In this document: positions 3,778-15,612 of the stretch, in pieces
Numbering within the stretch: the first letter of the stretch is position 1
How the letters are laid out: each line of letters begins with the position of its first letter
IMG/VR virus record: IMGVR_UViG_3300027733_000239
Coordinates: 1-21,317 of that record
Origin: a virus
Length of the DNA stretch: 21,317 bases
Reading direction: 5' to 3' (one strand)
Position numbers and translations under genes: made by a program
The notes under the pieces: model-generated
What the model was told of the DNA's origin: nothing
Seen by the model: only the letters and a program-made list of their open reading frames with translations
Database searches by the model: none

Positions 3778-3820
3778 ATTGCCTCCTGATTTTACTTAGG
3801 GTTATATAATTACTTTGTTG

Positions 3821-3849
3821 TTGATTTTGTATTGCAAAATACGCATAAT
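3821..3849 (+). promoter_or_regulatory. predicted sigma70-type promoter of pqqA
   Basis: TTGATT at 3821-3826 and CATAAT at 3844-3849 are separated by exactly 17 bp, putting the start point near 3856 and a leader of about 38 nt. An inverted repeat ATTTTG-N5-CAAAAT (3824-3840) fills most of the spacer, a place where a regulator could block polymerase. Part of it recurs at 3864-3872 (ATTTTGTAT), 40 bp downstream. Confidence 0.55.
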
Positions 3850-3893
3850 TTGCTAGACAAACAATTTTGTATGTCATAAACAAGGAGCAAACT

Positions 3894-3965
3894 ATGTGGA
3901 CAAAACCATCAGCAACTGAAATGCGTTTCGGCTTTGAAGTAACTATGTACGTTATGAACAAGTAA
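3894..3965 (+). CDS. pqqA: PqqA, pyrroloquinoline quinone precursor peptide
   Basis: The 23-codon frame begins MWTKP and ends RFGFEVTMYVMNK. It matches PqqA in length and layout: Trp2, Lys4-Pro5, and the Glu15-x3-Tyr19 pair (EVTMY). In known PqqA the radical SAM enzyme PqqE, with chaperone PqqD, crosslinks this Glu and Tyr, which become PQQ, the cofactor of periplasmic methanol and glucose dehydrogenases. AGGAG at 3884-3888 gives a strong ribosome binding site. The gene stands alone on the plus strand between minus-strand blocks, with its own promoter and no other pqq genes nearby. It most likely feeds host PqqB-E during infection (inference). Confidence 0.93.
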   Translation: MWTKPSATEMRFGFEVTMYVMNK

Positions 3966-3977
3966 TTATTGCATTAT

Positions 3978-4005
3978 GGGGATGTTCCTAAAAAGGAACA
4001 TCCTC
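3978..4005. terminator. strong hairpin between pqqA and the SSB-like gene
   Basis: GGATGTTCCT (3980-3989) pairs perfectly with AGGAACATCC (3994-4003) around an AAAA loop; two more pairs extend it (one G-T). It lies 12 bases after the pqqA stop and overlaps the last codons (DVPF-stop) of the convergent minus-strand gene. There is no T-run on either side, so it may act as a transcript-end stabiliser or mRNA boundary rather than a classical terminator. Confidence 0.5.
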
Positions 4006-4218
4006 ATCTATTGCTTCTTGTTTAGGCTTAACATCGCCTTCTTTCATTTGCACAGAGCCACTAATAAACTTACCCTTAGCACTCTCTCTAATCCATCCAC
4101 TAATTCTAAACTCAATCCCATCTACGTTAGCATTGCCTGTGTAGTCTGGTCGTTTTGGATTGTCGCCCTTATCATTTTTAAATAAAGTAAACGTATTTGT
4201 ATTATCATATTCTGCCAT
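3988..4218 (-). CDS. SSB-like protein with acidic DEDVPF tip
   Basis: This 76-residue product begins with YDNTNTFTLFKND and continues with strands compatible with an OB-type barrel (RPDYTGNANVDG, EFRISGWIRES, KGKFISGSVQM), and it ends EAIDEDVPF. That tip mimics the DDDIPF tail by which bacterial SSB recruits partners. It closes a minus-strand operon with YqaJ exonuclease and ERF annealing protein, so a single-strand DNA binding role in phage recombination is likely. It is shorter than cellular SSB (about 170 aa); a DUF736-like relation is also possible. AAGGAAAT precedes the ATG. Confidence 0.7.
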   Translation of the reverse strand: MAEYDNTNTFTLFKNDKGDNPKRPDYTGNANVDGIEFRISGWIRESAKGKFISGSVQMKEGDVKPKQEAIDEDVPF

Positions 4219-4219
4219 T

Positions 4220-4420
4220 TTATTTCCTTAGTGTTTTATAAAAATTTGCTACTGTGCTACCTGTAAAGTTATCAGGATGACGTTTAATTAATTGACCAAT
4301 AACTTTATCTAATCTTTCCATGTACTCTTCTTGCTTTTCTAAAGACAGTTCATCAAATGTTTGTGCATGTAATCCACTAGATGCTTTAATTAATGCTTGT
4401 CTTTCTATATCGTTAAACAT
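4220..4420 (-). CDS. small helical protein in the recombination operon
   Basis: The ATG shares TAATG with the stop of the exonuclease gene, whose last codons carry AAGGAG as ribosome binding site. The 66-residue product is predicted mainly helical (FNDIERQALIKASSGLH, DELSLEKQEEYMERLDKVI) and ends in a basic tail. No domain recognised. Position suggests an accessory of the exonuclease/annealing system. Confidence 0.65.
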   Translation of the reverse strand: MFNDIERQALIKASSGLHAQTFDELSLEKQEEYMERLDKVIGQLIKRHPDNFTGSTVANFYKTLRK

Positions 4421-5022
4421 TACTTAATCTCCTTAAGTTTATTAATTACATTATCCACTTCTTTTAAAAACTCTTGTACTTCTGTTTCTAATTCTTTTTG
4501 ATAGACAGGGTCTGCCTCTATACGCTTTACAAATATTTGTAAATGTTTTGGAAACATTGGATGGTAACTCACAAAATCACACCACTTACGACCTGTCACC
4601 AAAAGTTGAAACTGTACTTGAGGAACATACTTACTTGGAATGTCTTGTGTCATCAATGTTTCTGTATGCGTACTTCCCATAGGACATTTAATTTCAAGAA
4701 TACCATCATCACCTACCATACCATCAGGACTAGCACCAGCTTCCAAAGTGGGATGCTTAACAAATCCCACCTCTTCCACTTCCCCATGTTCTTGCACATA
4801 CCTTTCCCTAGCAAATTGCTCCCTATCTATACCGTCTTGCATTGCTTGGTTAATATAAGACTCTTGCCTTTCTCCAGTCAATCTTTCACTTACTAACTGA
4901 ATCTTGTAGTTACGTCTAGACGCAGACTCACCACTCTTAATCTTTGCTAATACATCAGCCACACGACTGGCTGTAACCAAACCGAGCCTCGCTTGAAACC
5001 ACTCTTGGGAAAGTTGTTCCAT
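4420..5022 (-). CDS. YqaJ-family (lambda-exonuclease-like) recombination nuclease
   Basis: The 200 residues show the YqaJ fold markers: QEWFQARLGLVTAS at 6-19, then SPDGMV with Asp100 and LEIKCP with Glu110 and Lys112, which form the PD-(D/E)XK active site, then VPQVQFQLLVTG with the conserved glutamines. Such enzymes resect double-stranded DNA 5' to 3' to leave single strands for annealing. It overlaps the ERF gene upstream (TAATG), and together with the SSB-like protein forms a complete exonuclease-annealase recombination set. Length is typical. Confidence 0.9.
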   Translation of the reverse strand: MEQLSQEWFQARLGLVTASRVADVLAKIKSGESASRRNYKIQLVSERLTGERQESYINQAMQDGIDREQFARERYVQEHGEVEEVGFVKHPTLEAGASPDGMVGDDGILEIKCPMGSTHTETLMTQDIPSKYVPQVQFQLLVTGRKWCDFVSYHPMFPKHLQIFVKRIEADPVYQKELETEVQEFLKEVDNVINKLKEIK

Positions 5023-5441
5023 TAGATAAAGTCCTCTGCTTTAGTATCTTTCATCTTAATAACTGCACCTGCACTAGAATCAATAGCGTCATGCTCTACA
5101 ATCTCAAAAGCATTAGTCCATAAATATCTACGCAAGTAAGTTTGTACTGCACCTAAATTCTGAACCTCATGGCAACCTTTTAAGGCAGCACTTGACATAG
5201 GGCATTTAAACTCAATGAATTGTGTAGCATCATTCATATCTGTAATAGTCAATACTGCAATGTCTGTATAAAATGTAACTGTGCCACAGATACCCACCTC
5301 ATTACAAATCTCTTGAATAGTAGGTAAGAAATCACCTAACTCAAAATACTTGTATCCAGCAAATTTATTATGACCAGACTTCTTGAGGTCTGCTACTTGT
5401 AACTTTAATCTTGCTTGCATTAGCTTACTGTGTATGCTCAT
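5022..5441 (-). CDS. ERF-family single-strand annealing protein
   Basis: From ATG 5441 the 139-residue product begins MSIHSKLMQARLKLQ and contains GYKYFELGDFLPTIQEI (about 33-49) and the hallmark GAVQTYLRRYLWTNAFEI (about 105-122), the ERF-family pattern. AGGAG sits at good spacing before this ATG. A longer in-frame start at 5534 would add 31 residues but would overlap the upstream gene by about 110 bases, so it is not preferred. ERF proteins pair complementary single strands made by the exonuclease encoded next. It is on the short side for the family. Confidence 0.85.
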   Translation of the reverse strand: MSIHSKLMQARLKLQVADLKKSGHNKFAGYKYFELGDFLPTIQEICNEVGICGTVTFYTDIAVLTITDMNDATQFIEFKCPMSSAALKGCHEVQNLGAVQTYLRRYLWTNAFEIVEHDAIDSSAGAVIKMKDTKAEDFI

Positions 5442-5622
5442 CGTTTTCTCTCCTGTTACATAATGTAATGTCTCTAATACTTCCTTCTGGTGTTGCTCCA
5501 TCATCACTTGGTCGTAATGCTGTCTTTGGCTCATTTGCTTTCTCCCATTTGTCGTTAGACTCTTTAAGTTCTGCTGTGCATCTGCGTAATTCTTTTACTA
5601 CGTCTTCTAAAGTAAGCGACAT
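5425..5622 (-). CDS. small charged protein (65 aa), leftward operon
   Basis: ATG 5622 is preceded by GGGGA. The N-terminal half (MSLTLEDVVKELRRCTAELK) is a likely coiled helix; the C-terminal half is polar and looks disordered. It overlaps the membrane-protein gene upstream by 16 bases and the ERF start by 17. No family recognised; it may be an accessory of the recombination genes. Confidence 0.55.
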   Translation of the reverse strand: MSLTLEDVVKELRRCTAELKESNDKWEKANEPKTALRPSDDGATPEGSIRDITLCNRRENDEHTQ

Positions 5623-5738
5623 ATAAAATATCCCCAAAATATTACTGTAAAATATCCTACCACATAATAAAACTTTTGTGTAAACTTTTTTTGTAGTCTG
5701 TCGTTAGTAATAATTCTCATAAATCTATCTATACTCAT
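5607..5738 (-). CDS. small membrane protein (43 aa), first gene of the leftward operon
   Basis: ATG 5738 follows AGGAG with 5-base spacing. The N-terminal half is basic (DRFMRIITNDRLQKKF), the C-terminal half is a membrane helix (YYVVGYFTVIFWGYFICRLL). It is the first gene after a near-consensus promoter, so it should be among the earliest and most abundant leftward products. Function unknown; inner-membrane early phage proteins of this size often target host processes. Confidence 0.65.
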   Translation of the reverse strand: MSIDRFMRIITNDRLQKKFTQKFYYVVGYFTVIFWGYFICRLL

Positions 5739-5762
5739 GTCTACTCCTAAACTTGAAAACAC

Positions 5763-5791
5763 ACTATACTCTTACTTTAATAAATTGTCAA
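5763..5791 (-). promoter_or_regulatory. leftward early promoter (lambda pL-like position)
   Basis: On the minus strand TTGACA (5791-5786) and TATAGT (5768-5763) are 17 bp apart, a full -35 match and a five-of-six -10 match. Transcription would start near 5756 and read the 43-aa membrane protein, ERF, YqaJ and SSB-like genes. Confidence 0.85.
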
Positions 5792-5828
5792 TAGGTATTT
5801 AACAGGGGGTATTTATCCGACTTCTCTA

Positions 5829-5848
5829 TTTGACAAGATTTGACAACT
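5829..5848 (+). repeat. tandem TTTGACAA repeats, candidate operators
   Basis: TTTGACAA occurs at 5829-5836 and again at 5839-5846, exactly 10 bp (one helical turn) apart, with an inverted TTGTCAA at 5785-5791 in the facing promoter. The first copy is the -35 box of the rightward promoter. The spacing suits a regulator such as the Cro-like protein, but this is inference. Confidence 0.5.
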
Positions 5849-5858
5849 ATGCTATAGT
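5830..5858 (+). promoter_or_regulatory. rightward early promoter (lambda pR-like position)
   Basis: TTGACA 5830-5835 and TATAGT 5853-5858 are separated by 17 bp, using the same hexamers as the divergent leftward promoter. Predicted start is near 5865, about 23 nt before the Cro-like ATG, whose ribosome binding site AAGGAGAG lies at 5876-5883. Confidence 0.85.
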
Positions 5859-5887
5859 CGCTATTCATTTCAATCAAGGAGAGCAAG

Positions 5888-6085
5888 ATGACCTTTCAAG
5901 AAGCGGTAGCACACTTTCATAACTCAAGACGTAAGATGGCATATGCCCTAGACATATCTATTCAGGCAGTTCAGAATTGGGCAAAGAATCCTGAAAAGCC
6001 AATTCCAAATAAACGAGCAGAGCAAATTGAAGAAGTGTTAATTAAAAGAAGACAGGCAGAAACAATTCCGCAAGCAACAGAGTAA
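5888..6085 (+). CDS. Cro-like helix-turn-helix regulator
   Basis: The 65-residue product has a Cro/YdaS-type helix-turn-helix: FQEAVAHFHNSRRKMAYALDISIQAVQNWAKNPEKPIPNKRAEQIEEVL, with the turn near LDIS and recognition helix at about residues 24-32 (IQAVQNWAK). It is the first gene of the rightward operon, directly downstream of a strong promoter and facing the leftward promoter, the position of lambda cro. It probably represses both early promoters. No CI partner gene is seen in the window. Confidence 0.85.
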   Translation: MTFQEAVAHFHNSRRKMAYALDISIQAVQNWAKNPEKPIPNKRAEQIEEVLIKRRQAETIPQATE

Positions 6086-6094
6086 GGGGATTAT

Positions 6095-6685
6095 ATGAGA
6101 ATTAAAAATTGGGAAAGGTTTCAGCATTACACTCCCATGAATCCACGTTTTCAAAAAAAGATGACTTGGTTTAAAGTTTATGGCGATGATTTACTGAACG
6201 ACCCTGACTTTATGAACCTTTCAGACGAATGTCAAGCAATGCTAGCAAAGTGCTGGTGTCTTGCTAGCAGGAAAAATGGTGAATTACCAGATGTAGATGG
6301 TATAGCCTTTGCTTTAAGAAAGGATAAAGCCTTTGTAATTAAGACTTTAGGTAAGTTATCATCATGGTTGCTAGCAGAAGGCTATCAGCTTGCTACCATA
6401 GAAGAAGAAAAAGAAAAAGAAAAAGAAATATCTATAGTTCATTTTGATACATTTTGGAATTTGTATCCAAGAAAAGTTGCTAAAGATTTATGTCTTCAAA
6501 AATGGAAGTCGAAGAAACTTGACAAAATAGGTGAACAAATTATTAGTCATGTTAAAGCTATGAAAGAAACAAAACAATGGAAAGATAGTGATGGTCAATT
6601 TATTCCTATGCCATTAACTTATATAAACCAAGCAAGATGGGAAGATGGTAAAAAAGTTAAGAATAATTGGGAAGGTGGCATTTAA
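6095..6685 (+). CDS. O-like replication initiator / helicase-loader protein
   Basis: The N-terminal 95 residues look like a winged-helix domain (TWFKVYGDDLLNDPDFMNLSDE, GELPDVDGIAFALRKD). A charged linker EEEKEKEKE (about 103-111) follows, then a C-terminal domain with FDTFWNLYPRKVAKDLCLQKW and FIPMPLTYINQARWED, the PxPxTYINQxRWED ending common in phage replication proteins. It precedes a DnaB-type helicase gene by a TAATG overlap, as O precedes the helicase function in lambdoid phages. Repeats inside the gene may mark the origin. Confidence 0.8.
   Translation: MRIKNWERFQHYTPMNPRFQKKMTWFKVYGDDLLNDPDFMNLSDECQAMLAKCWCLASRKNGELPDVDGIAFALRKDKAFVIKTLGKLSSWLLAEGYQLATIEEEKEKEKEISIVHFDTFWNLYPRKVAKDLCLQKWKSKKLDKIGEQIISHVKAMKETKQWKDSDGQFIPMPLTYINQARWEDGKKVKNNWEGGI
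6240..6427 (+). repeat. iteron-like repeats inside the O-like gene, candidate origin
   Basis: The palindrome TGCTAGCA occurs at 6240-6247, 6262-6269 and 6369-6376, with a variant TGCTACCA at 6391-6398. They form two pairs, each with 22 bp start-to-start. A purine run of three GAAAAA hexamers follows at 6407-6424. In lambda the origin iterons and an AT-rich element also lie inside gene O. The proposal is inference. Confidence 0.4.
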
Positions 6686-7602
6686 TGAATCTAGGAGAGG
6701 TCATTGATAAATTAACTGTAAACCAATCAACTGTTAAGGAGTTCTACAATGAAGGATATTCTCAAGCAGAGTTTAAAGTTAAAAGCACAGACATATTTAC
6801 TGATGACGTTATCAAGTATTTCGGTGAAGAAATTCATTCTGGTAAATCGTTGGGATTTATTAAGACGGAAGATAAGATAAGGTGTAGAAGTGCAGAATTA
6901 ACTATTCTTACAGGCGTTAGTGGTCATGGTAAATCTATGTGGCTATCTCAAGTAATATTATCTATGATGAAGCAAGGGACTAAATGTTTAATAGCGTCTT
7001 TAGAAATGAGACCTGTGCTTACATTGGCTCGTATGGTGACACAGACTTTAGGTTCACCAGAACCAACAGATGAATATATAGAAAAGTTTTGTGAACGTGC
7101 TAAAGACAAGTTATATATCTACGACCAATTAGGAACGACTACTTCTGAAGACATGATTGCTACACTTTATTATGGCAAACATATTTTAGGTGTAGATATA
7201 TTTGTGATTGACAGTCTTATGAAAATGTCAGATATTTCAGAAGAGTCTTTAGAGAAACAAAAATTGTTTATAGATAAGTTAGCAGTCACTTGTAGAGATT
7301 TGAATGTTCATGTATTCTTGGTAGCACATACTCGTAAAATGAAAGATGAAACAGAGATACCTGATGCTACAAATATTATGGGTAGTAGTCATATAAGAAA
7401 CCTTTGCGATAATATTATTTGCGTTTGGCGTAATCGTACTAAAGAAAAACTTACAGAAGAAGGTCAGACAGAAGAGAAAGATTTAAGGATAATTCCAGAT
7501 GCTAAAGTTTTTGTGCAGAAACAACGTAATGCTCAATGGGAAGGTGCGTTTAACTTTTGGTATGACCAAAAATCATTAAAGTATTTAGAATCACCAAAAT
7601 GA
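6685..7602 (+). CDS. DnaB/gp4-type replicative helicase domain protein
   Basis: From ATG 6685 the 305-residue product is a RecA-fold helicase: Walker A GVSGHGKS at 77-84, IASLEM at 103-108 with the catalytic Glu107, Walker B IFVIDS at 172-177, VAHTRK at 213-218 and IMGSSHIRNL at 231-240, which resembles the GSSxIxQ/N motif of DnaB and T7 gp4 helicases. The N-terminal 60 residues are too short for a primase or a full DnaB N-domain, so primase must come from elsewhere. It should unwind DNA at the fork together with the O-like protein encoded upstream. Confidence 0.88.
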   Translation: MNLGEVIDKLTVNQSTVKEFYNEGYSQAEFKVKSTDIFTDDVIKYFGEEIHSGKSLGFIKTEDKIRCRSAELTILTGVSGHGKSMWLSQVILSMMKQGTKCLIASLEMRPVLTLARMVTQTLGSPEPTDEYIEKFCERAKDKLYIYDQLGTTTSEDMIATLYYGKHILGVDIFVIDSLMKMSDISEESLEKQKLFIDKLAVTCRDLNVHVFLVAHTRKMKDETEIPDATNIMGSSHIRNLCDNIICVWRNRTKEKLTEEGQTEEKDLRIIPDAKVFVQKQRNAQWEGAFNFWYDQKSLKYLESPK

Positions 7603-7775
7603 CCATAAATGAGTTTATAAAACAATGTAAGAAATTATTTGGAGATGACATAGCTTACAAAGCAACTTCCAAAGATGGCGTAGTATTTAAAAATAAATGG
7701 AGGGATAGTTATGATACGATGGAGTTTAAATCAACAGAACCTAAACAATTTATTAGAGAAAATAAAAGCACTTGA
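7599..7775 (+). CDS. small protein (58 aa), unknown
   Basis: The ATG overlaps the helicase stop as ATGA, and the frame runs MTINEFIKQCKKLFGDDIAY, then GVVFKNKWRDSYDT, to TGA 7773-7775. It overlaps the NinB gene by about 65 bases, more than usual here, so its end or its reality is less certain. Sequence looks like a genuine small soluble protein. Function unknown. Confidence 0.5.
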   Translation: MTINEFIKQCKKLFGDDIAYKATSKDGVVFKNKWRDSYDTMEFKSTEPKQFIRENKST

Positions 7776-8064
7776 TTTTACTAAACGATGGAAGGTAAAC
7801 ATTGTGGAAGAAAAAACAGTTAGGTCTCTTGAATCCAATGAGAGATTATGGGCGTTGTATAATTCCATAGGTAATTATTTGGGAGAAGACGCTTCTACAA
7901 TACATGAGCTTATGGGGTATAAGTTCTTAAGAGAACAACGTGAAATATGTGATAATCCTGTAGAGCTTATCAAGTCAACAACAAAGTTGGATAGCAAACA
8001 GATGGCAGAGTATCAAGAAAACATTGAACGATGGGCTAGTCAGTTAGGTTGGAGTTTTGAGTAA
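7711..8064 (+). CDS. ninB: NinB recombination-mediator family protein
   Basis: The 117 residues fit NinB/Orf: an N-terminal LEKIKALDFTKRWKVNIVEEKTVRSLESNERLWALYNSIGNYLG (about 15-58), then STIHELMGYKFL and a C-terminal MAEYQENIERWASQLGW. NinB helps load recombination proteins onto single-stranded DNA and can replace RecFOR in lambda red recombination. GGAGGG precedes the start. It sits in the nin-type region between helicase and Q-like gene, as in lambda. Confidence 0.85.
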   Translation: MIRWSLNQQNLNNLLEKIKALDFTKRWKVNIVEEKTVRSLESNERLWALYNSIGNYLGEDASTIHELMGYKFLREQREICDNPVELIKSTTKLDSKQMAEYQENIERWASQLGWSFE

Positions 8065-8350
8065 TTACAGAAACAAAAAACTACTTGAATTAGTTCGTGA
8101 GTTTCCCTGTGCTATGTGTGGTAGAGAAGATGGAACAGTTTGTGCCTCTCATTCTAATCAACAAAGAGATGGCAAGGGCACAGGAATTAAGGCTCATGAT
8201 TATCGCATCGCTAGTCTTTGTTATGCTTGCCATGATATGATAGACAATCACAAAGAGTTAAGTAGAGCAGATAAAGTAGAAGCATGGGAGTCTGCTCATC
8301 GTAAAACTATTGGTTGGTTATTTGAGAAAGGAAAAATTAAAATTGGGTAA
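8057..8350 (+). CDS. DUF1364 / YbcO-type nuclease with HNH-like zinc site
   Basis: The product starts at TTG 8057 (SNYRNKKLLELVREFPCAMCG) and overlaps the NinB stop by 8 bases. Cys18-x2-Cys21, His32, Cys55-x2-Cys58-His59 (CYACHD) form the metal site typical of DUF1364, including the SHSNQQRDGKGTGIKAHDY stretch. YbcO of E. coli prophage DLP12 is a metal-dependent DNase of this family with a Rap/NinG-like role in recombination. Length (97 aa) is normal. The start codon is TTG rather than ATG. Confidence 0.85.
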   Translation: MSNYRNKKLLELVREFPCAMCGREDGTVCASHSNQQRDGKGTGIKAHDYRIASLCYACHDMIDNHKELSRADKVEAWESAHRKTIGWLFEKGKIKIG

Positions 8351-8519
8351 AGGCTCTACAAGACGACCATTGTTAATTTCTGAACAAGAAGCAAAAGATA
8401 ATTGGGATAAAATATTTAAAAAAGATTATGAATATGAATTAAACAAGTCTACAGGTGAAGTAGAAAAACGTTTTAAAGAAGGTACATCTAAACCTAACGG
8501 AGAACAATTTGGCGACTAG
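8343..8519 (+). CDS. small basic protein starting GKGSTRRP (58 aa)
   Basis: A TTG at 8343 gives a product beginning GKGSTRRPLLISEQEAKDNWDKIFKK, a start seen in many small phage proteins of unknown function, and overlaps the DUF1364 stop by 8 bases. Longer frames starting at 8310 would overlap it by 41 bases. The C-terminal half is polar and charged. It lies between two nuclease-like genes. Confidence 0.6.
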   Translation: MGKGSTRRPLLISEQEAKDNWDKIFKKDYEYELNKSTGEVEKRFKEGTSKPNGEQFGD

Positions 8520-8826
8520 TCCAACACAGTTAAGCCTTAAGAAATTAAAAGATGAAGGATATTTAGTAGCAATCACAGAGCATTGGAATCCGTTTGCAAG
8601 AATACGCCAAGACATGTTTGGGTTTTGCGACATCATGGCTATCAGAGATAAAGAAATTCTTTTTGTGCAAACCACAAGTGCTACCAATGCTAACGCTAGA
8701 ATAAAGAAAATTGCTAATTGTGAGCATGTTGGTATCATTAGAAAAGCTGGCATTATGATTCACGTTCATGGTTGGCATAAGAATAAAAGCAATCGTTGGG
8801 AGTGTAAGGTCAGAGATGTATCATAA
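8509..8826 (+). CDS. PD-(D/E)XK-like nuclease fold protein, active site degenerate
   Basis: The 105-residue product starts at TTG 8509 with GGAG upstream. It has an N-terminal LSLKKLKDEGYLVAITEHWN helix and strand, RQDMFGFCDIMAI with Asp41, then a strand LFVQTTS with Gln54 where a nuclease would have E/Q-x-K. A Thr-Thr takes the Lys place, so the site may be altered or the protein may bind DNA without cutting. VRR-NUC or Holliday-junction-resolvase-like proteins share this layout. It may complete the nin-type nuclease set. Confidence 0.55.
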   Translation: MATSPTQLSLKKLKDEGYLVAITEHWNPFARIRQDMFGFCDIMAIRDKEILFVQTTSATNANARIKKIANCEHVGIIRKAGIMIHVHGWHKNKSNRWECKVRDVS

Positions 8827-8834
8827 GGGAAAAT

Positions 8835-9167
8835 ATGCAAGCCAAAAGTAGAAGTTATAATGTAAGAGGTCGCTTAATCAATTTAGAAAAAATGCGTAGT
8901 CTCATTATAGAAACCATTGGAGATAGAACATTAACTATTGAAGAGTTATCTAAAGACATGGGCATGGAACGCAGAAAAGTTCAATATGTTTTACTTAACA
9001 TGAAAAATTTAGGTATGTTGAATTGCGTTAAAGATGGAAAGTTATTCAAATATTTTAAACCTTATGCTCACCCATTACAAATGATATTTCACCCTATGCC
9101 AGACTTTAGCGACAGGATTAAAGGCATCTATATTCACACAGAAGAGGAAGCCAATGCACATAGATAG
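8835..9167 (+). CDS. winged-helix DNA-binding protein
   Basis: The first 75 residues hold a winged helix: MRSLIIETIGDRTLTIEELSKDMGMERRKVQYVLLNMKNLGMLNCVKDGKLFKYF, in which ERRKVQYVLLNM is the recognition helix and VKDGKLFKYF the wing. AGGGAAA precedes the ATG. It overlaps the Q-like gene by 14 bases. It may regulate phage genes or assist replication; the target is unknown. Confidence 0.7.
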   Translation: MQAKSRSYNVRGRLINLEKMRSLIIETIGDRTLTIEELSKDMGMERRKVQYVLLNMKNLGMLNCVKDGKLFKYFKPYAHPLQMIFHPMPDFSDRIKGIYIHTEEEANAHR

Positions 9168-9480
9168 GCTTAAACAAATTTTAGATGATTGGGCATTGTG
9201 GCATAAAACACCAAGTCATCGTTTAGGATACCCTAGCAAGTCTTTAGGCATGATTTCAGGCGGTGAGTCTACTAGCGATGCTTTTGAGGATATGGTAGGG
9301 CAAATGGATATGACTAATGTTAGGACAATTGATGCCATTATAGATAGTTTACCCTCCAATCAAAAAGAAGCAATTTATACAAGGTATTTAAAAACTCGCA
9401 AATCTCTCAATTATGAGCATGAATTAGAAATGGGTATAGATAACTTACTAACTATAGCTTCAAGGCGTATAGTCGCTTGA
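9154..9480 (+). CDS. Q-like late antiterminator (phage 21/82 type)
   Basis: The 108 residues fit the Phage_antitermQ pattern: an N-terminal LDDWALWHKTPSHRLGYPSKS (about 10-30), a glycine-rich linker, then IDAIIDSLPSNQKEAIYTRYL (about 60-80) resembling a sigma region 4 helix-turn-helix, and a C-terminal ASRRIVA. Q proteins bind DNA at the late promoter, join paused RNA polymerase and let it pass the first terminator. Here a consensus promoter and a terminator follow the gene at once, as lambda pR' and tR' do. Confidence 0.8.
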   Translation: MHIDRLKQILDDWALWHKTPSHRLGYPSKSLGMISGGESTSDAFEDMVGQMDMTNVRTIDAIIDSLPSNQKEAIYTRYLKTRKSLNYEHELEMGIDNLLTIASRRIVA

Positions 9481-9505
9481 CACGAGCATTTAATTGTGGT
9501 ATAAT
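9477..9505 (+). promoter_or_regulatory. perfect consensus promoter, pR'-like
   Basis: TTGACA 9477-9482 and TATAAT 9500-9505 match both consensus hexamers with a 17-bp spacer. The -35 box overlaps the last codons of the Q-like gene. Start is predicted near 9512. A further CATAAT (9529-9534) in the early transcribed region could serve as a promoter-like pause element of the kind Q needs, though this is speculative. Confidence 0.9.
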
Positions 9506-9511
9506 CACGCT

Positions 9512-9578
9512 ATTGGATAACTCTCGCCCATAATCTCCGTAGCATCTTTAAGCCCTTATAAATAAAGGGCTTTTTTTA
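9512..9578 (+). ncRNA. candidate short leader RNA (6S-like, about 66 nt)
   Basis: Promoter start near 9512 and terminator end near 9578 define a short transcript with no reading frame of note. It would be the counterpart of the lambda 6S RNA made from pR' when Q is absent. No extra conserved fold was recognised apart from the terminator hairpin. Confidence 0.45.
9550..9577 (+). terminator. rho-independent terminator, tR'-like
   Basis: AAGCCCTT (9550-9557) pairs with AAGGGCTT (9565-9572) across a 7-base loop, and T continues to 9577. This is a textbook intrinsic terminator on the plus strand about 40 nt after the predicted transcription start. Confidence 0.92.
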
Positions 9579-9588
9579 TAGGTCAAAT

Positions 9589-9750
9589 ATGAAGAAATTA
9601 GCATCAGTTAAAAAGATTAAAAAAGTAATGGATGAATACAAGTCAGGCACTCTTCATACAGGCTCAAAAACAGGTAAAATTGTTAAAAGTCAAAAACAAG
9701 CTATCGCTATTGCCTTAAGTGAAGCAGGCAAGTCTAAAAAGAAATATTAA
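9589..9750 (+). CDS. DUF6496 small basic protein
   Basis: The 53-residue product carries KVMDEYKSGTLHTGSKTG followed by KIVKSQKQAIAIALSEAGK, the signature of DUF6496, and is rich in lysine. It starts 11 bases after the terminator T-run and ends tail-to-tail with a minus-strand gene, sharing 4 bases (TTAA). Function unknown; a DNA-binding or virion-associated role is guessed from its charge. If Q works here, this is the first gene read after antitermination. Confidence 0.8.
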   Translation: MKKLASVKKIKKVMDEYKSGTLHTGSKTGKIVKSQKQAIAIALSEAGKSKKKY

Positions 9751-9875
9751 TGGTGAAATAATTGGTCTAATATCCAAAATAAGACCTTGTAAAGCAAATA
9801 AGTTAAGAGTCCCATAACAGCATATTCAACAATTCCACGCTTTCGGTGTGATAAATGCGGTCTATAATGATACAT
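9747..9875 (-). CDS. small membrane protein (42 aa), end of minus block
   Basis: ATG 9875 has AAGGAG five bases upstream. The N-terminus is basic (YHYRPHLSHRKRG) and the C-terminus is one membrane helix (YAVMGLLTYLLYKVLFWIL). A longer in-frame start at 9935 lies inside the upstream gene and is not preferred. Function unknown. Confidence 0.65.
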   Translation of the reverse strand: MYHYRPHLSHRKRGIVEYAVMGLLTYLLYKVLFWILDQLFHH

Positions 9876-10041
9876 GTTGACTCCTTTGTTTTTGAATGAA
9901 TGATTGAGCTTCTTTTTTAGTAGCCATAAAGACATAGCTTTTAAGGCTTCTATTATACTTTATTAGTTCATTGACCCATATAGATAGGTCATGACTAGAA
10001 AATCGCTTTATGGTGCGTTCCTGTGTGTTTAAGACGTACAT
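9862..10041 (-). CDS. small basic protein (59 aa) with ATKKEAQSFI tail
   Basis: ATG 10041 follows GGAGACCTCC. The product begins MYVLNTQERTIKRFSSHDLS and ends with ATKKEAQSFIQKQRSQHVSL. The tail resembles the SIKxAKxF endings of two other products of this block (10629-10808 and 11685-11822), so they may share a small fold. Overlaps both neighbours by about 13 bases. Function unknown. Confidence 0.6.
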   Translation of the reverse strand: MYVLNTQERTIKRFSSHDLSIWVNELIKYNRSLKSYVFMATKKEAQSFIQKQRSQHVSL

Positions 10042-10235
10042 TGGAGGTCTCCTTCACTAGAATAATTAAGAATATTACGCAAAACTTGTTTAGATAAGTT
10101 TTTACCATCTCTTGACATTCGTTCCTGTTCCCATAACAAAATGTTAATAATATGGTCAACATCTTTTAATGACATACGATGTAAACACTCTGTTAAATTT
10201 TTATTGTGATTGTCTTCAATTTCGTCTGCGTTCAT
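10029..10235 (-). CDS. hypothetical protein (68 aa)
   Basis: The start overlaps the upstream stop as ATGA. The product has an acidic N-terminus (MNADEIEDNHNKN) and a helical middle (LKDVDHIINILLWEQERM). No family recognised. Third gene from the end of the minus-strand small-gene block. Confidence 0.6.
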   Translation of the reverse strand: MNADEIEDNHNKNLTECLHRMSLKDVDHIINILLWEQERMSRDGKNLSKQVLRNILNYSSEGDLQCTS

Positions 10236-10456
10236 TTTATAGTATCCTCATGAAATTTAATAAATAAATCAGTTAAGTTTTGAATATGACCTAATAAGTC
10301 ATCAGCTTCACAATGTTCAAATGGTTCCCATATAGAGACATCATCAGGAATGACATTGTCACATAATGAGTCATGAAACTGACTATGGGTGTTATCTCCT
10401 AAGTCAGAGACATAGAAGTCAATAGCATAATTGCTAGCAAGTTTGCATAAGTTCAT
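10232..10456 (-). CDS. hypothetical acidic protein (74 aa)
   Basis: ATG 10456 is preceded by GGAGG, which itself lies in the 3' end of the upstream gene. The product is strongly acidic (VIPDDVSIWEPFEHCEADDLL, FIKFHEDTIK). Small acidic early phage proteins include DNA mimics, but nothing here proves such a role. Confidence 0.6.
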   Translation of the reverse strand: MNLCKLASNYAIDFYVSDLGDNTHSQFHDSLCDNVIPDDVSIWEPFEHCEADDLLGHIQNLTDLFIKFHEDTIK

Positions 10457-10458
10457 AA

Positions 10459-10632
10459 TTAAACCTCCATTGTCAATATTTCATTAGTAATTTCGGATAA
10501 TCGATAACGCATATCTTCTAAATACGAATTTATGGTTAAGTATCCGCTTGGTGTCATGCCTCTATTAACATCTTCTAAATTGATGTCAATAGCGTGTAAT
10601 TGTTCTGTTATATAGTCTAGTTCTACATTCAT
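10459..10632 (-). CDS. hypothetical protein (57 aa)
   Basis: This frame begins MNVELDYITEQLHAIDINLE and continues with GYLTINSYLEDMRYRLSEIT, so it is mostly helical and acidic. ATG overlaps the upstream stop (ATGA) and GGAG lies before it. Its last codons hold TTGACAATGGAGG, combining the block's repeated motif with the next ribosome binding site. Confidence 0.6.
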   Translation of the reverse strand: MNVELDYITEQLHAIDINLEDVNRGMTPSGYLTINSYLEDMRYRLSEITNEILTMEV

Positions 10633-10808
10633 GATGCGTTCTCCATGTTGATAAAGTTTTTAGCTTGTTTAATAGATCGAAAATTATCTCCCCAAACGTC
10701 ATAAGGGTCTCCATTTTCGTCTAGTTTCCAAACGTGATAGTATTCTGTTCTTCCTGTAAAGCTATAACTGTTATTTATAAGATAATTGTTATATATAATT
10801 TGGTGCAT
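10629..10808 (-). CDS. hypothetical protein (59 aa) with SIKQAKNFI tail
   Basis: The product starts MHQIIYNNYLINN, has a strand-rich middle (TEYYHVWKLDENGDPYDVWG), and ends with FRSIKQAKNFINMENAS. The C-terminal motif recurs in the product of 11685-11822 (SIKDAKRLF). GGAGA lies upstream at usual spacing. Function unknown. Confidence 0.6.
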   Translation of the reverse strand: MHQIIYNNYLINNSYSFTGRTEYYHVWKLDENGDPYDVWGDNFRSIKQAKNFINMENAS

Positions 10809-10820
10809 GGTAAAGTCTCC

Positions 10821-11009
10821 TTAAATGTATTCATGTTCAATACTGATAGTCCATGAGATAGGACAAGAACACTCATAAGCCTTCTCTATAGATTGAGTTA
10901 TTTTGTCAATTGATTCAGTATCAGCAAAATGCAAAGTAAACTCTGTCAATAGATTTGTTGAATTTTTAATTGATTCTGAATATGCTTTAAACGTGATATT
11001 AGCTAACAT
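10821..11009 (-). CDS. hypothetical protein (62 aa)
   Basis: ATG 11009 follows AAGGAGAATAACC. The product MLANITFKAYSESIKNSTNL then LTEFTLHFADTESIDKI suggests a small alternating beta/alpha fold. It overlaps the upstream gene by 11 bases. No family recognised. Confidence 0.6.
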   Translation of the reverse strand: MLANITFKAYSESIKNSTNLLTEFTLHFADTESIDKITQSIEKAYECSCPISWTISIEHEYI

Positions 11010-11196
11010 GGTTATTCTCCTTAATTGGTAAATTGTCTTGAATATTTATATCTGATAATTCGTCATCATCTAAATGATAATTAGGTCTTAAAGTTATACT
11101 GCAAGCATTTCCGCAAGTAATTATTTGAAGCCTCATTGAATCGTCAGTGCTGTTTATTGCTGTTATAAGTGCTTTAATGTTTTGATCGTTATTCAT
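10999..11196 (-). CDS. hypothetical protein (65 aa)
   Basis: ATG 11196 is preferred over the TTG two codons earlier because AGGAG is seven bases upstream. The product has NIKALITAINSTDDSMRLQI, a Cys pair in TCGNACSITL, and an acidic end (DDDELSDINIQDN). TTGACAA lies between ribosome binding site and start. Function unknown. Confidence 0.6.
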   Translation of the reverse strand: MNNDQNIKALITAINSTDDSMRLQIITCGNACSITLRPNYHLDDDELSDINIQDNLPIKENNHVS

Positions 11197-11207
11197 TGTC
11201 AATTCTC

Positions 11208-11294
11208 CTAGTAAGATAACATTAATAGTAAGAACATATATAGATTTATAAAGCCTAGTAATAAGATTAGAAAATGCTTAAGTAAGTTATTCAT
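11208..11294 (-). CDS. 28-aa hydrophobic peptide
   Basis: ATG 11294 overlaps the upstream stop (ATGA) and has AAGGAG upstream. Apart from MNNLLKH, the whole peptide is one membrane helix (FLILLLGFINLYMFLLLML). Its TAG stop overlaps the ribosome binding site of the next gene. Very short, but coupling on both sides supports translation. It could be a small membrane effector or just a coupling leader. Confidence 0.5.
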   Translation of the reverse strand: MNNLLKHFLILLLGFINLYMFLLLMLSY

Positions 11295-11497
11295 TGTTTA
11301 ATCTCCTTAACTTGAATTTCATCATCATAACGTTGAATTGTCTCATGCTCTTCTTCATGCCATTGAGAACCGCCTATGATATTGTCATAGATTAAAGCAT
11401 TTTGTTTAGCTTCTTCTGTATTGTTAGCTTCTACAATGATAGTTTCATACTCTATCATTTGCACTAATCTAGGTATAACTATTTCATATTGATTCAT
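11291..11497 (-). CDS. hypothetical protein (68 aa), EEA-motif type
   Basis: The product MNQYEIVIPRLVQMIEYETI then IVEANNTEEAKQNAL has the beta strand followed by a short helix with EEA that is common in small phage and plasmid proteins. AAGGAGG lies before ATG 11497. Acidic overall. Function unknown. Confidence 0.6.
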   Translation of the reverse strand: MNQYEIVIPRLVQMIEYETIIVEANNTEEAKQNALIYDNIIGGSQWHEEEHETIQRYDDEIQVKEIKQ

Positions 11498-11643
11498 TAT
11501 AAAACCTCCTTATTAATATAACTGTCAATTTGTTTAATAATGCTGTTATATTGCTTTAATGATATAGATTGAGGTAAACATAAAGTCAAGCCTTTGTCAA
11601 TCTGTTGTTTAATCTCTTTAAGTTCTGTTATAGATAGTTTCAT
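11497..11643 (-). CDS. hypothetical protein (48 aa)
   Basis: From ATG 11643 (AGGAG upstream) the product reads MKLSITELKEIKQQIDKGL, then PQSISLKQYNSIIKQIDSYI, two likely helices. A predicted promoter lies just upstream. It stops within the start codon of the next gene. Confidence 0.6.
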   Translation of the reverse strand: MKLSITELKEIKQQIDKGLTLCLPQSISLKQYNSIIKQIDSYINKEVL

Positions 11644-11671
11644 AATGTTATCTCCTGTTAGTGTATAAGTA

Positions 11672-11699
11672 ATAATACATAAGTTTATAATGTTGTCAA
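11672..11699 (-). promoter_or_regulatory. predicted internal promoter of the minus block
   Basis: On the minus strand TTGACA (11699-11694) and TATTAT (11677-11672) are 16 bp apart. It would start transcription near 11665, just ahead of the gene at 11643. The -35 box overlaps the end of the upstream gene. Confidence 0.55.
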
Positions 11700-11822
11700 G
11701 TATTCTTTAAACAATCTTTTAGCGTCTTTAATAGAGTAAAAGTAATATGTTTGATATATATATTGATTATCTTTTATATCTGATAGCGTTATAGAGCCGT
11801 TATAATTCTTTGTTATAGACAT
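11685..11822 (-). CDS. hypothetical protein (45 aa) with SIKDAKRLF tail
   Basis: ATG 11822 follows AGGAGATAATACC. The product starts MSITKNYNGSITLSDIKDNQ and ends with FYSIKDAKRLFKEYLTTL. Its C-terminus resembles those of 10629-10808 and 9862-10041. TTGACAA stands six bases before its ribosome binding site. Function unknown. Confidence 0.6.
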   Translation of the reverse strand: MSITKNYNGSITLSDIKDNQYIYQTYYFYSIKDAKRLFKEYLTTL

Positions 11823-11882
11823 GGTATTATCTCCTGTTATATTGTCAAGTTTGATTAATTCGTAGTTATAAAAGGGAATCAG

Positions 11883-12212
11883 TTAAAATTGTAAGTAAAC
11901 TAACTTATTATCGCTAGTAATGCCTATGAGTATAGTGTTATCATTTAAGAAGTCTTCTATAGCTTGATTCTTATCTTCTATAGACAAGTCTTCTAAGTCT
12001 TCTATAGAGTAATTACTAGCTATCTCTTCATAAGTGCTTTCTGAATAGTCACAACATATAGCTATAACGTCAAGTTCTATAGGGTTTTCTCTAGTCTCTA
12101 ACTCTTCAAGGTAATTGAATAGTAGTTCTAAGGCATCATAACTGAATTGTTCGCTTCTACCTCTTAAATTAAAAGCATTGTGAAAGTCATAACTGCTGAC
12201 AGATTGATACAT
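11883..12212 (-). CDS. conserved-type phage protein (109 aa), acidic, unknown
   Basis: The product starts MYQSVSSYDFHNAFNLRGRS and continues with YDALELLFNYLEELE and IELDVIAICCDYSEST, an order I recall from small proteins in many phages without assigned function. It is strongly acidic, which could fit an antirestriction or DNA-mimic protein, but there is no proof. It is the first gene of the minus block; AGGAG and TTGACAA lie just upstream. Confidence 0.7.
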   Translation of the reverse strand: MYQSVSSYDFHNAFNLRGRSEQFSYDALELLFNYLEELETRENPIELDVIAICCDYSESTYEEIASNYSIEDLEDLSIEDKNQAIEDFLNDNTILIGITSDNKLVYLQF

Positions 12213-12294
12213 GGTAAGTCTCCTATTAAGTTGTCAAGTATTACAATAGCTATACTAAACTCATTAAATAGATTGTCAAGTATTATTATTAATT
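12213..12294 (-). promoter_or_regulatory. upstream control region of the minus small-gene block
   Basis: Two copies of AATACTTGACAA (minus strand, ends at 12231 and 12273) lie here. The distal copy offers a -35 box (TTGACA 12278-12273), but the nearest -10 candidates are weak (TAGTAT or TATAGC). The proximal copy sits six bases from the ribosome binding site and is more like an operator. Confidence 0.4.
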
Positions 12295-12314
12295 AAATTG
12301 TAACAAATTGTAAC
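12295..12314 (+). repeat. tandem 10-bp repeat AAATTGTAAC x2
   Basis: AAATTGTAAC at 12295-12304 is followed at once by an exact copy at 12305-12314, a one-helical-turn phasing. It lies between the divergent minus block and the late operon and overlaps a candidate -35 box. Confidence 0.6.
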
Positions 12315-12336
12315 AGGATAATTAAAGACATATATA
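12308..12336 (+). promoter_or_regulatory. candidate promoter of the packaging/head operon
   Basis: TTGTAA 12308-12313 and TATATA 12331-12336 are 17 bp apart, each four of six to consensus. A TATAGT follows at 12335-12340. The leader to the terminase gene would be about 110 nt. The weak match suggests an activator or reliance on read-through. Confidence 0.4.
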
Positions 12337-12452
12337 TAGTATAGATAACTTAAATACATCATAAAAGCATATTGAGACGCACATAAACGCACGCTAACGC
12401 ATTATTAATTAAGGGTTGATACTTACCCATAACCAATTTATAAGGTAATAAC

Positions 12453-12890
12453 ATGGACGATATAACAACAGATAACATAGAGACGATAGAAGATATACAG
12501 GAAGAGCTTACATCATCTGAGCTTGTAGAGATTGACAAGGAAGAGATAGTTAATAGAGGAAGACCCCCGCACCTTCCAAACGACACCACCCGAAATAGAG
12601 TTTTTATTTTAAGTACAGTAGGCACTCGCCATGAAGATATTGCAACCGTATTAAACATATCACATGATACACTTGTCAAGTACTATAAAGAAGAGCTTGA
12701 CAAAGGTCGTATTGAAGCTAACGCTTCTGTAGCAGAGACCTTATTCAAACAAGCTAAAGAAGGCAACACAACTGCTATGATATTCTGGTTGAAGTCTAGA
12801 GCTAAATGGAAAGAAACATCTCAACACGAGATAAGCGGTAACCCTGACGGTACGCCTGTTGAAGTAAAGATTGTGACAGGAATAGATTAG
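12453..12890 (+). CDS. terminase small subunit-like protein
   Basis: The 145-residue product has an acidic N-terminus (about 1-32), then RGRPPHLPNDTTRNRVFILSTVGTRHEDIATVLNISHDTLVKYYKEELDKG, a helix-turn-helix of the kind that small terminases use to bind packaging sites, then ANASVAETLFKQAKEGNTTAMIFWLKSRAKWKE, a common ending in this family. Small terminases form rings that recognise phage DNA and hand it to the large subunit. Here the large subunit is 1.4 kb downstream. AAGG precedes the ATG. Confidence 0.8.
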   Translation: MDDITTDNIETIEDIQEELTSSELVEIDKEEIVNRGRPPHLPNDTTRNRVFILSTVGTRHEDIATVLNISHDTLVKYYKEELDKGRIEANASVAETLFKQAKEGNTTAMIFWLKSRAKWKETSQHEISGNPDGTPVEVKIVTGID

Positions 12891-12972
12891 ACCCCCCACC
12901 CCTTTTTTAAAAAAACGAAAAACCTCTCTACGAATGAAACGTCAGTAGGGTAAATTTTACACAGGATATTTT

Positions 12973-13386
12973 ATGGTTGAACCAGTAGAAAAAGAAAGCA
13001 TGCCGACTTATGCGGATGTGAGCAATGATAACGTAGTGGCAGTTTTTGTGCTATTATGTCTTCATGCAGTTACTAACAACCACATCAACCACTGGCGCAC
13101 AGATTCTTTCTCTATACACTCTGCCCTTGGTGAGTTCTACGAATCGCTTGGCGAGGCTCTAGATGAGTTTGTAGAGGCATATATGGGTAAGTATGGGCAA
13201 ATCAAAGATTACCCAGAGTTTTACTCATTACCTAATAAAGACGCTTTATCTGAACTAAAGATGTTATGTGGAGCTGTAACTGCTCTTCGTGAACAAATGC
13301 CAGATGACTCTGAACTAGAAAACCTTCTGGATAATATTGAAAGTTTGATTGACTCAACTATGTATAAGGTAAAATTCTTAAAATGA
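12973..13386 (+). CDS. DUF5856 family protein
   Basis: The 137 residues contain LHAVTNNHINHWRTDSFSIHSALGEFYESLGEALDEFVEAYMGKYG (about 30-76), the four-helix, His-rich core of DUF5856, which resembles the Dps/ferritin-like bundle. Whether it binds metal is unknown; His31, His37, His40 and His49 with Glu54 are possible ligands. It lies between the terminase genes and overlaps the next gene as ATGA. Confidence 0.75.
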   Translation: MVEPVEKESMPTYADVSNDNVVAVFVLLCLHAVTNNHINHWRTDSFSIHSALGEFYESLGEALDEFVEAYMGKYGQIKDYPEFYSLPNKDALSELKMLCGAVTALREQMPDDSELENLLDNIESLIDSTMYKVKFLK

Positions 13387-13529
13387 AAAACGGATTATAC
13401 GCAAACATAAACGCTAAACAAAAAAGGATAGCTGCAGGTTCTGGTGAAAAGATGCGTAAGGTAGGCACTAAAGGTGCACCTACTGCTAAAGCATTTAAAC
13501 AATCAGCAAAGACAGCTAAAAAGAAATGA
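13383..13529 (+). CDS. small lysine-rich protein (48 aa)
   Basis: The product reads KNGLYANINAKQKRIAAGSG, then EKMRKVGTKGAPTAKAFKQS and a run of lysines. This is a family of tiny basic proteins common near phage packaging genes. Start and stop overlap both neighbours as ATGA. High positive charge suggests DNA or RNA contact, possibly inside the capsid; that is inference. Confidence 0.75.
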   Translation: MKNGLYANINAKQKRIAAGSGEKMRKVGTKGAPTAKAFKQSAKTAKKK

Positions 13530-13828
13530 GTGCTGCTTGGCAAAAGAAAGAAGGCAAGAACCCTAAAGGCGGACTTAACGCCAAAGGTCGTGCATCTTAC
13601 AAAGCTGAAACAGGCGGTACTTTAAAAGCACCTGTAAAATCTGGTGACAATCCTAGACGTGCATCATTCCTAGCTCGTATGGGTAACATGGCTGGTCCAG
13701 AACATAAACCTAACGGTGAGCCAACAAGATTACTATTATCCCTAAAGGCTTGGGGAGCATCATCTAAATCAGATGCTAAAGCCAAAGCAAAATCTATCTC
13801 AACCAGAAATAAACAAAAAGGAAAGTAA
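13526..13828 (+). CDS. DUF6321 family basic protein
   Basis: The 100 residues match the DUF6321 pattern almost end to end: AWQKKEGKNPKGGLNAKGRASY, GGTLKAPVKSGDNPRRASFLARMGNM and TRLLLSLKAWGASSK. It is strongly basic. Function unknown; found with packaging genes in many phages. Confidence 0.85.
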   Translation: MSAAWQKKEGKNPKGGLNAKGRASYKAETGGTLKAPVKSGDNPRRASFLARMGNMAGPEHKPNGEPTRLLLSLKAWGASSKSDAKAKAKSISTRNKQKGK

Positions 13829-13830
13829 TC

Positions 13831-13995
13831 ATGCCAATGGTCGGAAAAAAGAAATTCCCCTATACGGAAAAAGGTAAACATGCAGCAGAAACTTATGCTA
13901 GTGCAAAAGGTATGAAGATGCACGAAAAGAAAGAAACCAAGAAAAAAGAAGGCAAAGAAACAGGCATGAAAAAAATGATGAAAGGTAAAAAATGA
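13831..13995 (+). CDS. small lysine-rich protein (54 aa)
   Basis: The product starts MPMVGKKKFPYTEKGKHAAE, a pattern of small basic phage proteins, and more than a third of it is Lys. AAAGGAAAG lies upstream and the stop overlaps the next ATG. Probably same functional group as its two upstream neighbours. Confidence 0.75.
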   Translation: MPMVGKKKFPYTEKGKHAAETYASAKGMKMHEKKETKKKEGKETGMKKMMKGKK

Positions 13996-14309
13996 GTAGC
14001 ATACGATTTGATGATAACGAAAATTTAGTAGATGCTTATGTACCAAGTACATCACAAGTATTTGCAGTAGGTAATACGACAGCATCTTCAACTGCATTTG
14101 GTGCAGGCACAACTTTAGTAAGAGTATCTTGTTCACTTGGTCACTGCCATGTAGCGTTTGGCACAGCTCCAACAGCTTCTATTACAACAAGCATGATGAT
14201 TCCTAATAACTCTGTAGGTATATTTAAAGTTAATGCAGGTGATAAGATTGCATACATTAAAGATGCAACTGTTACTTCATCAACACTATGTGTAACGGAA
14301 CTAGCATAA
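13992..14309 (+). CDS. putative virion protein (beta-rich, 105 aa)
   Basis: After an acidic start (SSIRFDDNENLVDAY) the product is rich in Thr, Ser, Gly and Val and alternates in a beta-sandwich manner (VFAVGNTTASSTAFGAGTTL, VAFGTAP, IFKVNAGDKIAYIKDA). Such small proteins are often capsid decoration or head-associated proteins. No family name is certain. Confidence 0.6.
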   Translation: MSSIRFDDNENLVDAYVPSTSQVFAVGNTTASSTAFGAGTTLVRVSCSLGHCHVAFGTAPTASITTSMMIPNNSVGIFKVNAGDKIAYIKDATVTSSTLCVTELA

Positions 14310-14340
14310 AAAATTAAACCTTAAGGAGCGATGACCCTAT

Positions 14341-15612
14341 ATGGAGTCGCAAAACAAAACATTAGATACAGGTTATAGACCACGAGTTCCACAAAAACTT
14401 ATACACAACGCTGTAAGAGATAATAGATTTGTGGTAGTAGTAGCACATAGACGTATGGGTAAGACTGTATCAGCTATTAATCAGCTTATACATAGTGCCC
14501 TTACTTGTACTAAAAAAGAACCACGTTATGCTTATGTAGCTCCCACATACAATCAATCCAAGAGAATTGCATGGGACTACCTTGTAAACTATACTAGACC
14601 TCTTGGTGCAAAGGTAAACATTGCTGAACTTCGCGTTGATTTTATGGGTAGACGTATCTCACTATACGGTGCAGATAACCCAGACTCACTTCGTGGTATT
14701 TACCTCGATGGTTGCGTCATAGATGAAATAGGAAACATAAATCCTTCAGTATTTAGTGATATTGTACGACCAGCACTGACAGATAGATTAGGTTTTTGTG
14801 TTGCAATGGGCACTCCAAAGGGAAATAACCATTTTAGAGGCTTAAGAGATAGAGCAGCAGAGGGTCAAGGATGGAAATTATTAGAATTTAAGTCTTCTGA
14901 TACAAAACTTCTTAACGAAGAAGAGTTAAGAGCAGCAAAATTAGAAATGGGTGACGACAAATTCATGCAAGAATTTGAATGTTCATTTAATTCACCTGTA
15001 GAGGGGTCATATTACTCTAAATTAATAAACGAAATTGAAGAAAAAGCACACATGACCGAGATTCCTCGTGATGATTTGTGCAGAAGTTACACTGCATGGG
15101 ATTTGGGAATGTCAGATTCTACTGCAATATGGGTAGCACAGCTAACTGGTAAGGAAATACGTCTTATTGACTACATGGAAAATCATGGTCAAGGTTTAGA
15201 GTACTATGTTCAGTGGTTAAAAGACAATGACTACATGCACTTTGAGCATATCTTGCCACATGACGTAGAAGTTCGTGAATTAGGCACTGGAAAATCTCGT
15301 AAGGAGACTCTAGAAGATGCAGGACTTCATATTATTACTTGCCCTCGTCTTAATGTTGCTGATGGTATACAAGCTGTTAGACGAATGATTCCTAGATGTT
15401 GGTTTGACCCAAAAGCTAAACAAGGTTTAGATGCTCTTCGCAATTATCGTAGGCACTATGACGAGAAAAGAGCAGTCTTCCATGATAGACCATTACATGA
15501 TTGGTCATCACACGCTAGTGACGCTTTTAGATACCTTGCAACAGGTTTAAACGATGCACCTGCAGAAGAATGGAATAGACCTATTAACGTAAACACAAAT
15601 TGGATAGTATAA
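14341..15612 (+). CDS. terL: terminase large subunit
   Basis: The 423-residue product has an ATPase domain with Walker A VVAHRRMGKT (33-42), Walker B CVIDE (125-129) and coupling motif AMGTPKG (155-161), then an RNase H-like nuclease domain starting at AWDLGMSDST (252-261, Asp254) and ending HDWSSHASDAFRY. It pumps DNA into proheads and cuts concatemers. AAGGAG is 12 bases from this ATG, longer than usual; an out-of-frame ATG at 14331 opens only 15 codons. It ends just before the portal gene. Confidence 0.95.
   Translation: MESQNKTLDTGYRPRVPQKLIHNAVRDNRFVVVVAHRRMGKTVSAINQLIHSALTCTKKEPRYAYVAPTYNQSKRIAWDYLVNYTRPLGAKVNIAELRVDFMGRRISLYGADNPDSLRGIYLDGCVIDEIGNINPSVFSDIVRPALTDRLGFCVAMGTPKGNNHFRGLRDRAAEGQGWKLLEFKSSDTKLLNEEELRAAKLEMGDDKFMQEFECSFNSPVEGSYYSKLINEIEEKAHMTEIPRDDLCRSYTAWDLGMSDSTAIWVAQLTGKEIRLIDYMENHGQGLEYYVQWLKDNDYMHFEHILPHDVEVRELGTGKSRKETLEDAGLHIITCPRLNVADGIQAVRRMIPRCWFDPKAKQGLDALRNYRRHYDEKRAVFHDRPLHDWSSHASDAFRYLATGLNDAPAEEWNRPINVNTNWIV

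Follow-up and report, generated by a model that had tools for sequence, protein, structure and literature searches.

Does the interval between a Q-like gene and the terminator that follows it in this phage DNA act as a late switch, and of what kind? The stretch analyzed here, called the window, covers positions 1 to 21,317 of the 21.3-kb virus record IMGVR_UViG_3300027733_000239. By tblastn, its large terminase is closest to that of Caudoviricetes ctXG6705 (91%) and then to that of Methylophilales phage Venkman (72%), which makes a Methylophilales host likely. We read the locus, with a probability of roughly 85%, as a late switch of the Q/pR'/tR' type in a tailed phage, which is a well-known kind of regulation. 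The gene order found is a Q-like gene, a strong sigma-70 promoter and a terminator ahead of the late genes, with a leftward gene block intervening in the window. A tRNA search found none, and an Rfam search returned nothing at the gathering score. The features, with their basis in brackets, are as follows.

9154-9480, + strand: putative Q-like antiterminator gene, 108 aa (open reading frame, annotated homologs, weak family matches, model)
9477-9505, + strand: predicted late promoter, -35 at 9477-9482, -10 at 9500-9505, TG at 9497-9498 (12/12 consensus)
9512-9541, + strand: conserved transcript start, predicted +1 to +30 (alignment A3, 31 leaders)
9516-9521, + strand: -10-like hexamer GATAAC, candidate sigma-dependent pause element, +5 to +10 (likeness to relatives)
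9515-9526, + strand: GG-N8-CG elemental pause consensus, +4 to +15 (GG-N8-YG in relatives)
9514-9530, + strand: weak inverted repeat TGG...CCA, possible 5' hairpin (recurrent in relatives)
9535-9538, + strand: CTCC motif in the linker (63/73 distinct leaders)
9550-9577, + strand: predicted intrinsic terminator, tR'-like, stem 9550-9572 plus T run (hairpin, stem covariation)
9589-9750, + strand: DUF6496 gene, the first 3' of the terminator (Pfam PF20106, E 1.7e-10)
12453-19919, + strand: late genes (PHROGs, tblastn)
12453-12890, + strand: small terminase
14341-15612, + strand: large terminase
15615-17687, + strand: portal
18975-19919, + strand: major capsid protein

The two promoter hexamers are separated by a 17-nt spacer, with the TG one base 5' of the -10 (extended -10). 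This is the sole 12/12 site within bases 1-20000 and, with both strands and spacings of 16-18 nt considered, the sole perfect promoter anywhere in the window, where 300 dinucleotide shuffles give a chance expectation of 0.04; a Q-like gene followed by a perfect TTGACA-17-TATAAT promoter, as originally predicted, is thus what the window contains. The stop codon of the Q-like gene falls inside the TTGACA, so part of the conservation of the -35 could be coding. Assuming a start 7 nt past the -10, the predicted start point is 9512. The 8-bp direct repeat that serves as the Q site in phage 21 was sought in the spacers of 18 promoters and not found; a spacer word resembling CATTT-N3-TGG was seen by eye in groups B, C and D and in part of group A of the relatives.

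The terminator stem (8 bp with four G-C pairs and a 7-nt loop) begins at +39, and RNA running from 9512 to the end of the T run at 9577 would be 66 nt long, in agreement with the terminator some 40 nt past the start and the RNA of about 66 nt that had been proposed. Terminator-like hairpins by themselves are about as frequent as expected by chance (2 found against 1.4 expected, and 10 against 8.4 in a second count), so position and conservation are what count. A terminator is present in 73 of 75 distinct leaders, giving a median RNA length of 68 nt (range 57-104). In an alignment of 31 leaders (A3; 30 distinct), 88.8% of stem cells pair and four of the eight pairs are changed on both sides, while the two helices taken together beat all shuffles in four of five measures. 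Because the stem covaries over the aligned leaders, the terminator is, judged by its sequence, real. The group G terminator is a hairpin of 14 bp, and the leaders of L006, L034 and L044 carry two tandem terminator-like hairpins and are longer (about 88 nt).

The further suggestion that a leader of about 66 nt is an unusual, minimal version did not hold up, as known members are similar or shorter. StxS, the terminated late-promoter RNA of Stx phages, is described as 74 nt long (PMC12197685), and the AlpA-controlled terminators are described as starting 54 and 26 nt past the start point (PMC7969949). By analogy with these, the short leader is ordinary for such switches.

The promoter and terminator recur with the gene among relatives. 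A first scan of viral contigs yielded 118 protein relatives, 80 of which were kept, and a perfect 12/12 promoter (16-18 nt spacing) lies directly 3' of the gene in 77 of these 80 loci; in L069 and L074 it stands behind an inserted gene, and the contig of L070 ends 109 nt past the gene. Seventy-five of the 77 promoter-bearing loci have a terminator, the remaining two being L050, which ends too soon, and L042, in which the stem is imperfect. Further scans, run with more distant members, returned 41, 59 and 4 loci, and in one scan 191 contigs encoded a Q-like relative. Leaders were collected from 261 loci, many of which are duplicates from contigs that appear twice, by looking for a -10 of TATAAT or TAAAAT near the gene; this gave 78 distinct leaders, reduced to 75 when L165, L172 and L246 were dropped by hand as spurious. 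Outside the leader counts are 28 loci without such a -10 and most Venkman-like loci. In 57 loci no good promoter follows the gene immediately, and few of them carry one at a greater distance. Perfect promoters (15-19 nt spacing) occur in 6 of 20 long records, one or two in each, and the reversed control gave one match in all. This pattern misses groups C, F and G, in which the -10 is TAAAAT or the -35 is weaker.

In L199, from another group, a gene is likewise inserted between Q and the promoter; since the switch is intact behind the inserted gene there and in L069 and L074, it appears to be a unit of its own. The same layout is found in the EBPR podovirus group and in L288, in which the proteins are 37% and 28% identical. 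In L288, a bacterial MAG contig (Pseudomonadota), TTGACA, TATCTT, GGGCAT...TGTCC and a terminator lie at about 635-735. The Venkman group keeps the protein and not the adjacent promoter. Venkman itself (MT375522, 1448-1478, - strand) has a perfect TTGACA-19-TATAAT heading the leftward late genes, with the Q-like gene elsewhere; a possible ACGG...CCGT stem follows this promoter, and neither a T-run terminator nor GG-N8-YG is found there. Of 15 related records searched at the DNA level, 11 gave short matches, so we do not claim a conserved counterpart.

The Q-like protein of the window has no match in Pfam and none in PHROGs at E 0.1 (a family without an assigned function appears at 0.22), and a search of the window record with Phage_antitermQ (PF06530) gave no match. 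Among 32 diverse relatives, eight touch PF06530 weakly (best 0.00033), with a match colinear over residues 7-81 in L190, and eight touch Sigma70_r4_2 (best 0.0014). The best PF06530 score of the relatives, 20.2 bits, lies below the curated 26-bit cut-off, and for this reason the protein is not filed under that family. A PDB sequence search with two profiles returned only unrelated matches (E about 1), a profile comparison with QuuD of E. coli K-12 was not significant, and Foldseek found nothing under 0.001 in the PDB and two such matches among predicted viral proteins, both uncharacterized phage proteins.

The AlphaFold model (pLDDT 79) consists of an N-terminal helix, an unplaced loop at residues 22-38 and a helical C-terminus. 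Phage 21 Q chains from polymerase complexes rank first and second of 250 PDB chains compared with it (Z 5.8 and 5.7), the 5.8 being tied with sigma region 4 domains, and a Z of about 5.8 may reflect only a common arrangement. Loop 22-38 contains several positions that vary little or not at all in the family (P27, G36, G37, L24-Y26). The N-terminal segment of 21 Q is described as forming a ring in the RNA exit channel (PMC6606751), and the conserved loop would fit such a ring or nozzle role. Three public records contain a relative, and in two of them (MW202481 and MT375522) the depositors had already annotated it as an antitermination protein. The protein is probably a compact antiterminator resembling 21 Q. 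A literature search, mostly without subscription papers, found no earlier description of this Q-like family, which is no proof that none exists. Directly 5' of the Q-like gene, 8835-9167 encodes a helix-turn-helix-like protein (TrmB, E 0.0035, below the cut-off), and genes of similar size occupy this slot in several other groups.

The most conserved part of the leader, which the original prediction had passed over, is its first 30 transcribed bases. TTGG (+2 to +5), CTCG (+12 to +15), CCA and TCCG are invariant in A3, and positions +31 to +37 are variable. A -10-like element is found in the initial transcript of most groups. The hexamer begins at +5 to +8 in most groups and at +9 in part of group G, mostly inside TGGGATAGT or TGGGATAAT; most relatives have TGGGATA[AG]T or similar, and the GATAAC copy of the window is weaker, shifted and matches at 4/6. 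When scored against shuffling, the element is significant only in groups E (mean p 0.005) and F (0.02), borderline in group B (0.06) and not significant in the others (0.15-0.33), so the case for it rests on conservation. Overlapping it, 64 of 75 distinct leaders carry GG-N8-YG, against 0 of 75 control stretches; the motif is absent from groups E and F and from L189, and it recurs in the EBPR group and L288. It fits the elemental pause logo, described as a G at -10 with a neighboring G, a pyrimidine at -1 and a G at +1 (PMC10268239). Both this motif and the -10-like element lie where Q proteins are described as requiring a sigma-dependent pause (PMC9371919, PMC7876045). Further along, 63 of 73 distinct leaders carry CTCC 3' of +18, and eight of the ten others carry TTCC; in group G the CTCC sits in the terminator loop.

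Downstream of the terminator the groups differ. In groups B to G, small genes on the same strand are followed, where the locus is long enough, by terminase (eight loci). In the window, about a dozen small leftward genes (9747-12212, - strand, about 2.5 kb) separate the DUF6496 gene from the small terminase, so that late transcription from the switch would run antisense through them. No + strand terminator is listed between 9577 and 12453. The leftward genes mostly have AGGAGA-type ribosome-binding sites, three promoter-like sites with TTGACA and 16-nt spacing stand ahead of the block (11672-11699, 11821-11848 and 12252-12279, - strand), and ctXG6705 has a similar leftward block.

Four other accounts of these observations were weighed. 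The late genes proper begin 2.9 kb downstream, and together with the conserved 30-nt start and CTCC this could mean that the promoter and terminator make a stand-alone small RNA without read-through, leaving the late genes to another promoter; StxS is described as a regulatory RNA from just such a promoter (PMC12197685). We find this very unlikely, given that small genes and terminase come directly after the switch in groups B to G, that no promoter above 10/12 stands just before 12453, that the pair travels with the Q-like gene, and that the leader has no Rfam match. Alternatively, the hairpin, which lies directly 3' of an early operon and is of a kind that often arises by chance, might simply end that operon, and the small DUF6496 gene would be all that the promoter serves. 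In that case a perfect promoter 40 nt 5' of a strong terminator would be pointless. The 75 distinct leaders have kept their length and start, and the pair is not separated by the insertion of a gene behind Q, all of which makes an operon end without regulated read-through scarcely credible.

A different possibility is that the leader RNA itself controls read-through, with its 5' hairpin acting on polymerase like put of HK022 and the protein doing something else. No Q site of the 21 type is recognized in the promoter, and a small 5' inverted repeat does recur among groups with differing sequences: ten lineage representatives combined (10 of 14 sequences) reach a z of -5.7, the lineages not being truly independent. 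The hairpin is strong in leaders of groups C, D and G. That of the window, however, is weak (-0.6 kcal/mol, z +0.21), group means ran only from -0.5 to -1.9 in an earlier count, and the fourth pair in A3 is G-C in 23, A-U in 3 and a mismatched A-C, as in the window, in 5 of 31 leaders. With the Q-like gene beside the switch in all groups compared, control by a put-like hairpin is highly improbable. Given the non-independent representatives, the low group means, the weak window copy and the single pair that covaries in A3, we regard the case for the 5' hairpin as suggestive.

Less remote, though still unlikely, is a functional leader in which the 5' hairpin and CUCC are kept for a job of their own. 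The hairpin could be the RNA part of a Q-loading code in which promoter DNA, pause and nascent hairpin are read together; or the leader could be a small RNA that is made until Q acts and that base-pairs with ribosome-binding sites of the GGAG type, leaving the late genes untouched. In group A, GGAG precedes 1 of 99 distinct late-gene starts and 188 of 372 in the leftward block, whereas group C runs opposite (late 10 of 53, early 3 of 63). Pairing the window's linker with 49 gene starts gives a mean duplex energy of -7.9 kcal/mol; random stretches give -6.5 (sd 2.7). An anti-Shine-Dalgarno role was dropped as a separate reading, the duplex energies being unconvincing and group C contradicting the GGAG contrast.

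The late switch remains the preferred reading. Counting against it are a window protein without a family match and relatives below the PF06530 cut-off, the tie with sigma region 4, the missing 21-type repeat, the leftward block of about 2.5 kb, the non-adjacent Venkman promoter and the lack of GG-N8-YG in groups E and F. In the late switch as we picture it, sigma-70 RNA polymerase would start at the consensus promoter and pause within the first 14-22 nt at the -10-like element and the elemental pause sequence. As long as the Q-like protein is lacking, it would stop at the terminator and release a transcript of about 66 nt. The protein is encoded just upstream; after it has built up, it would engage the paused polymerase and insert its conserved flexible loop into the RNA exit channel, as phage 21 Q does with its nozzle, and polymerase would then read through into the late genes.

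If so, Q-type antitermination would also operate in a large group of aquatic phages, in which the antiterminator goes unrecognized by the family libraries. A 108-aa protein with a highly conserved loop would suit tests of the minimal needs of a nozzle-type antiterminator. The point deserving attention is the conserved RNA start, where natural variants of the first 30 bases could separate sigma pausing, elemental pausing and nascent RNA structure.

Among known systems, lambda Q/pR'/tR' is alike in gene order and logic, and its 6S RNA measures about 194 nt. Lambda Q, which has a zinc finger, is described as larger and unrelated (PMC9371919). StxS is a short terminated RNA similar in length to the leader here, and it has known trans-acting targets whereas none are known for this leader. 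AlpA, with the alpB promoter and tB of Pseudomonas aeruginosa, is, as proposed here for the Q-like protein, a promoter-loaded antiterminator with a nearby terminator and is described as requiring a -10-like pause element (PMC9371919); that system is a host cell-death operon with the AlpA element GGGACG, and AlpA has no known sequence homology to the Q-like protein. Phage 21 Q is longer (162 aa against 108 aa), its direct-repeat site was not found here, and the -10-like element lies a few bases further downstream here than in phage 21. It is nonetheless the best structural match of the window protein model, relatives of which weakly match PF06530, and in phage 21 the Q gene likewise lies directly 5' of a promoter and terminator, with a -10-like element in the early transcript.
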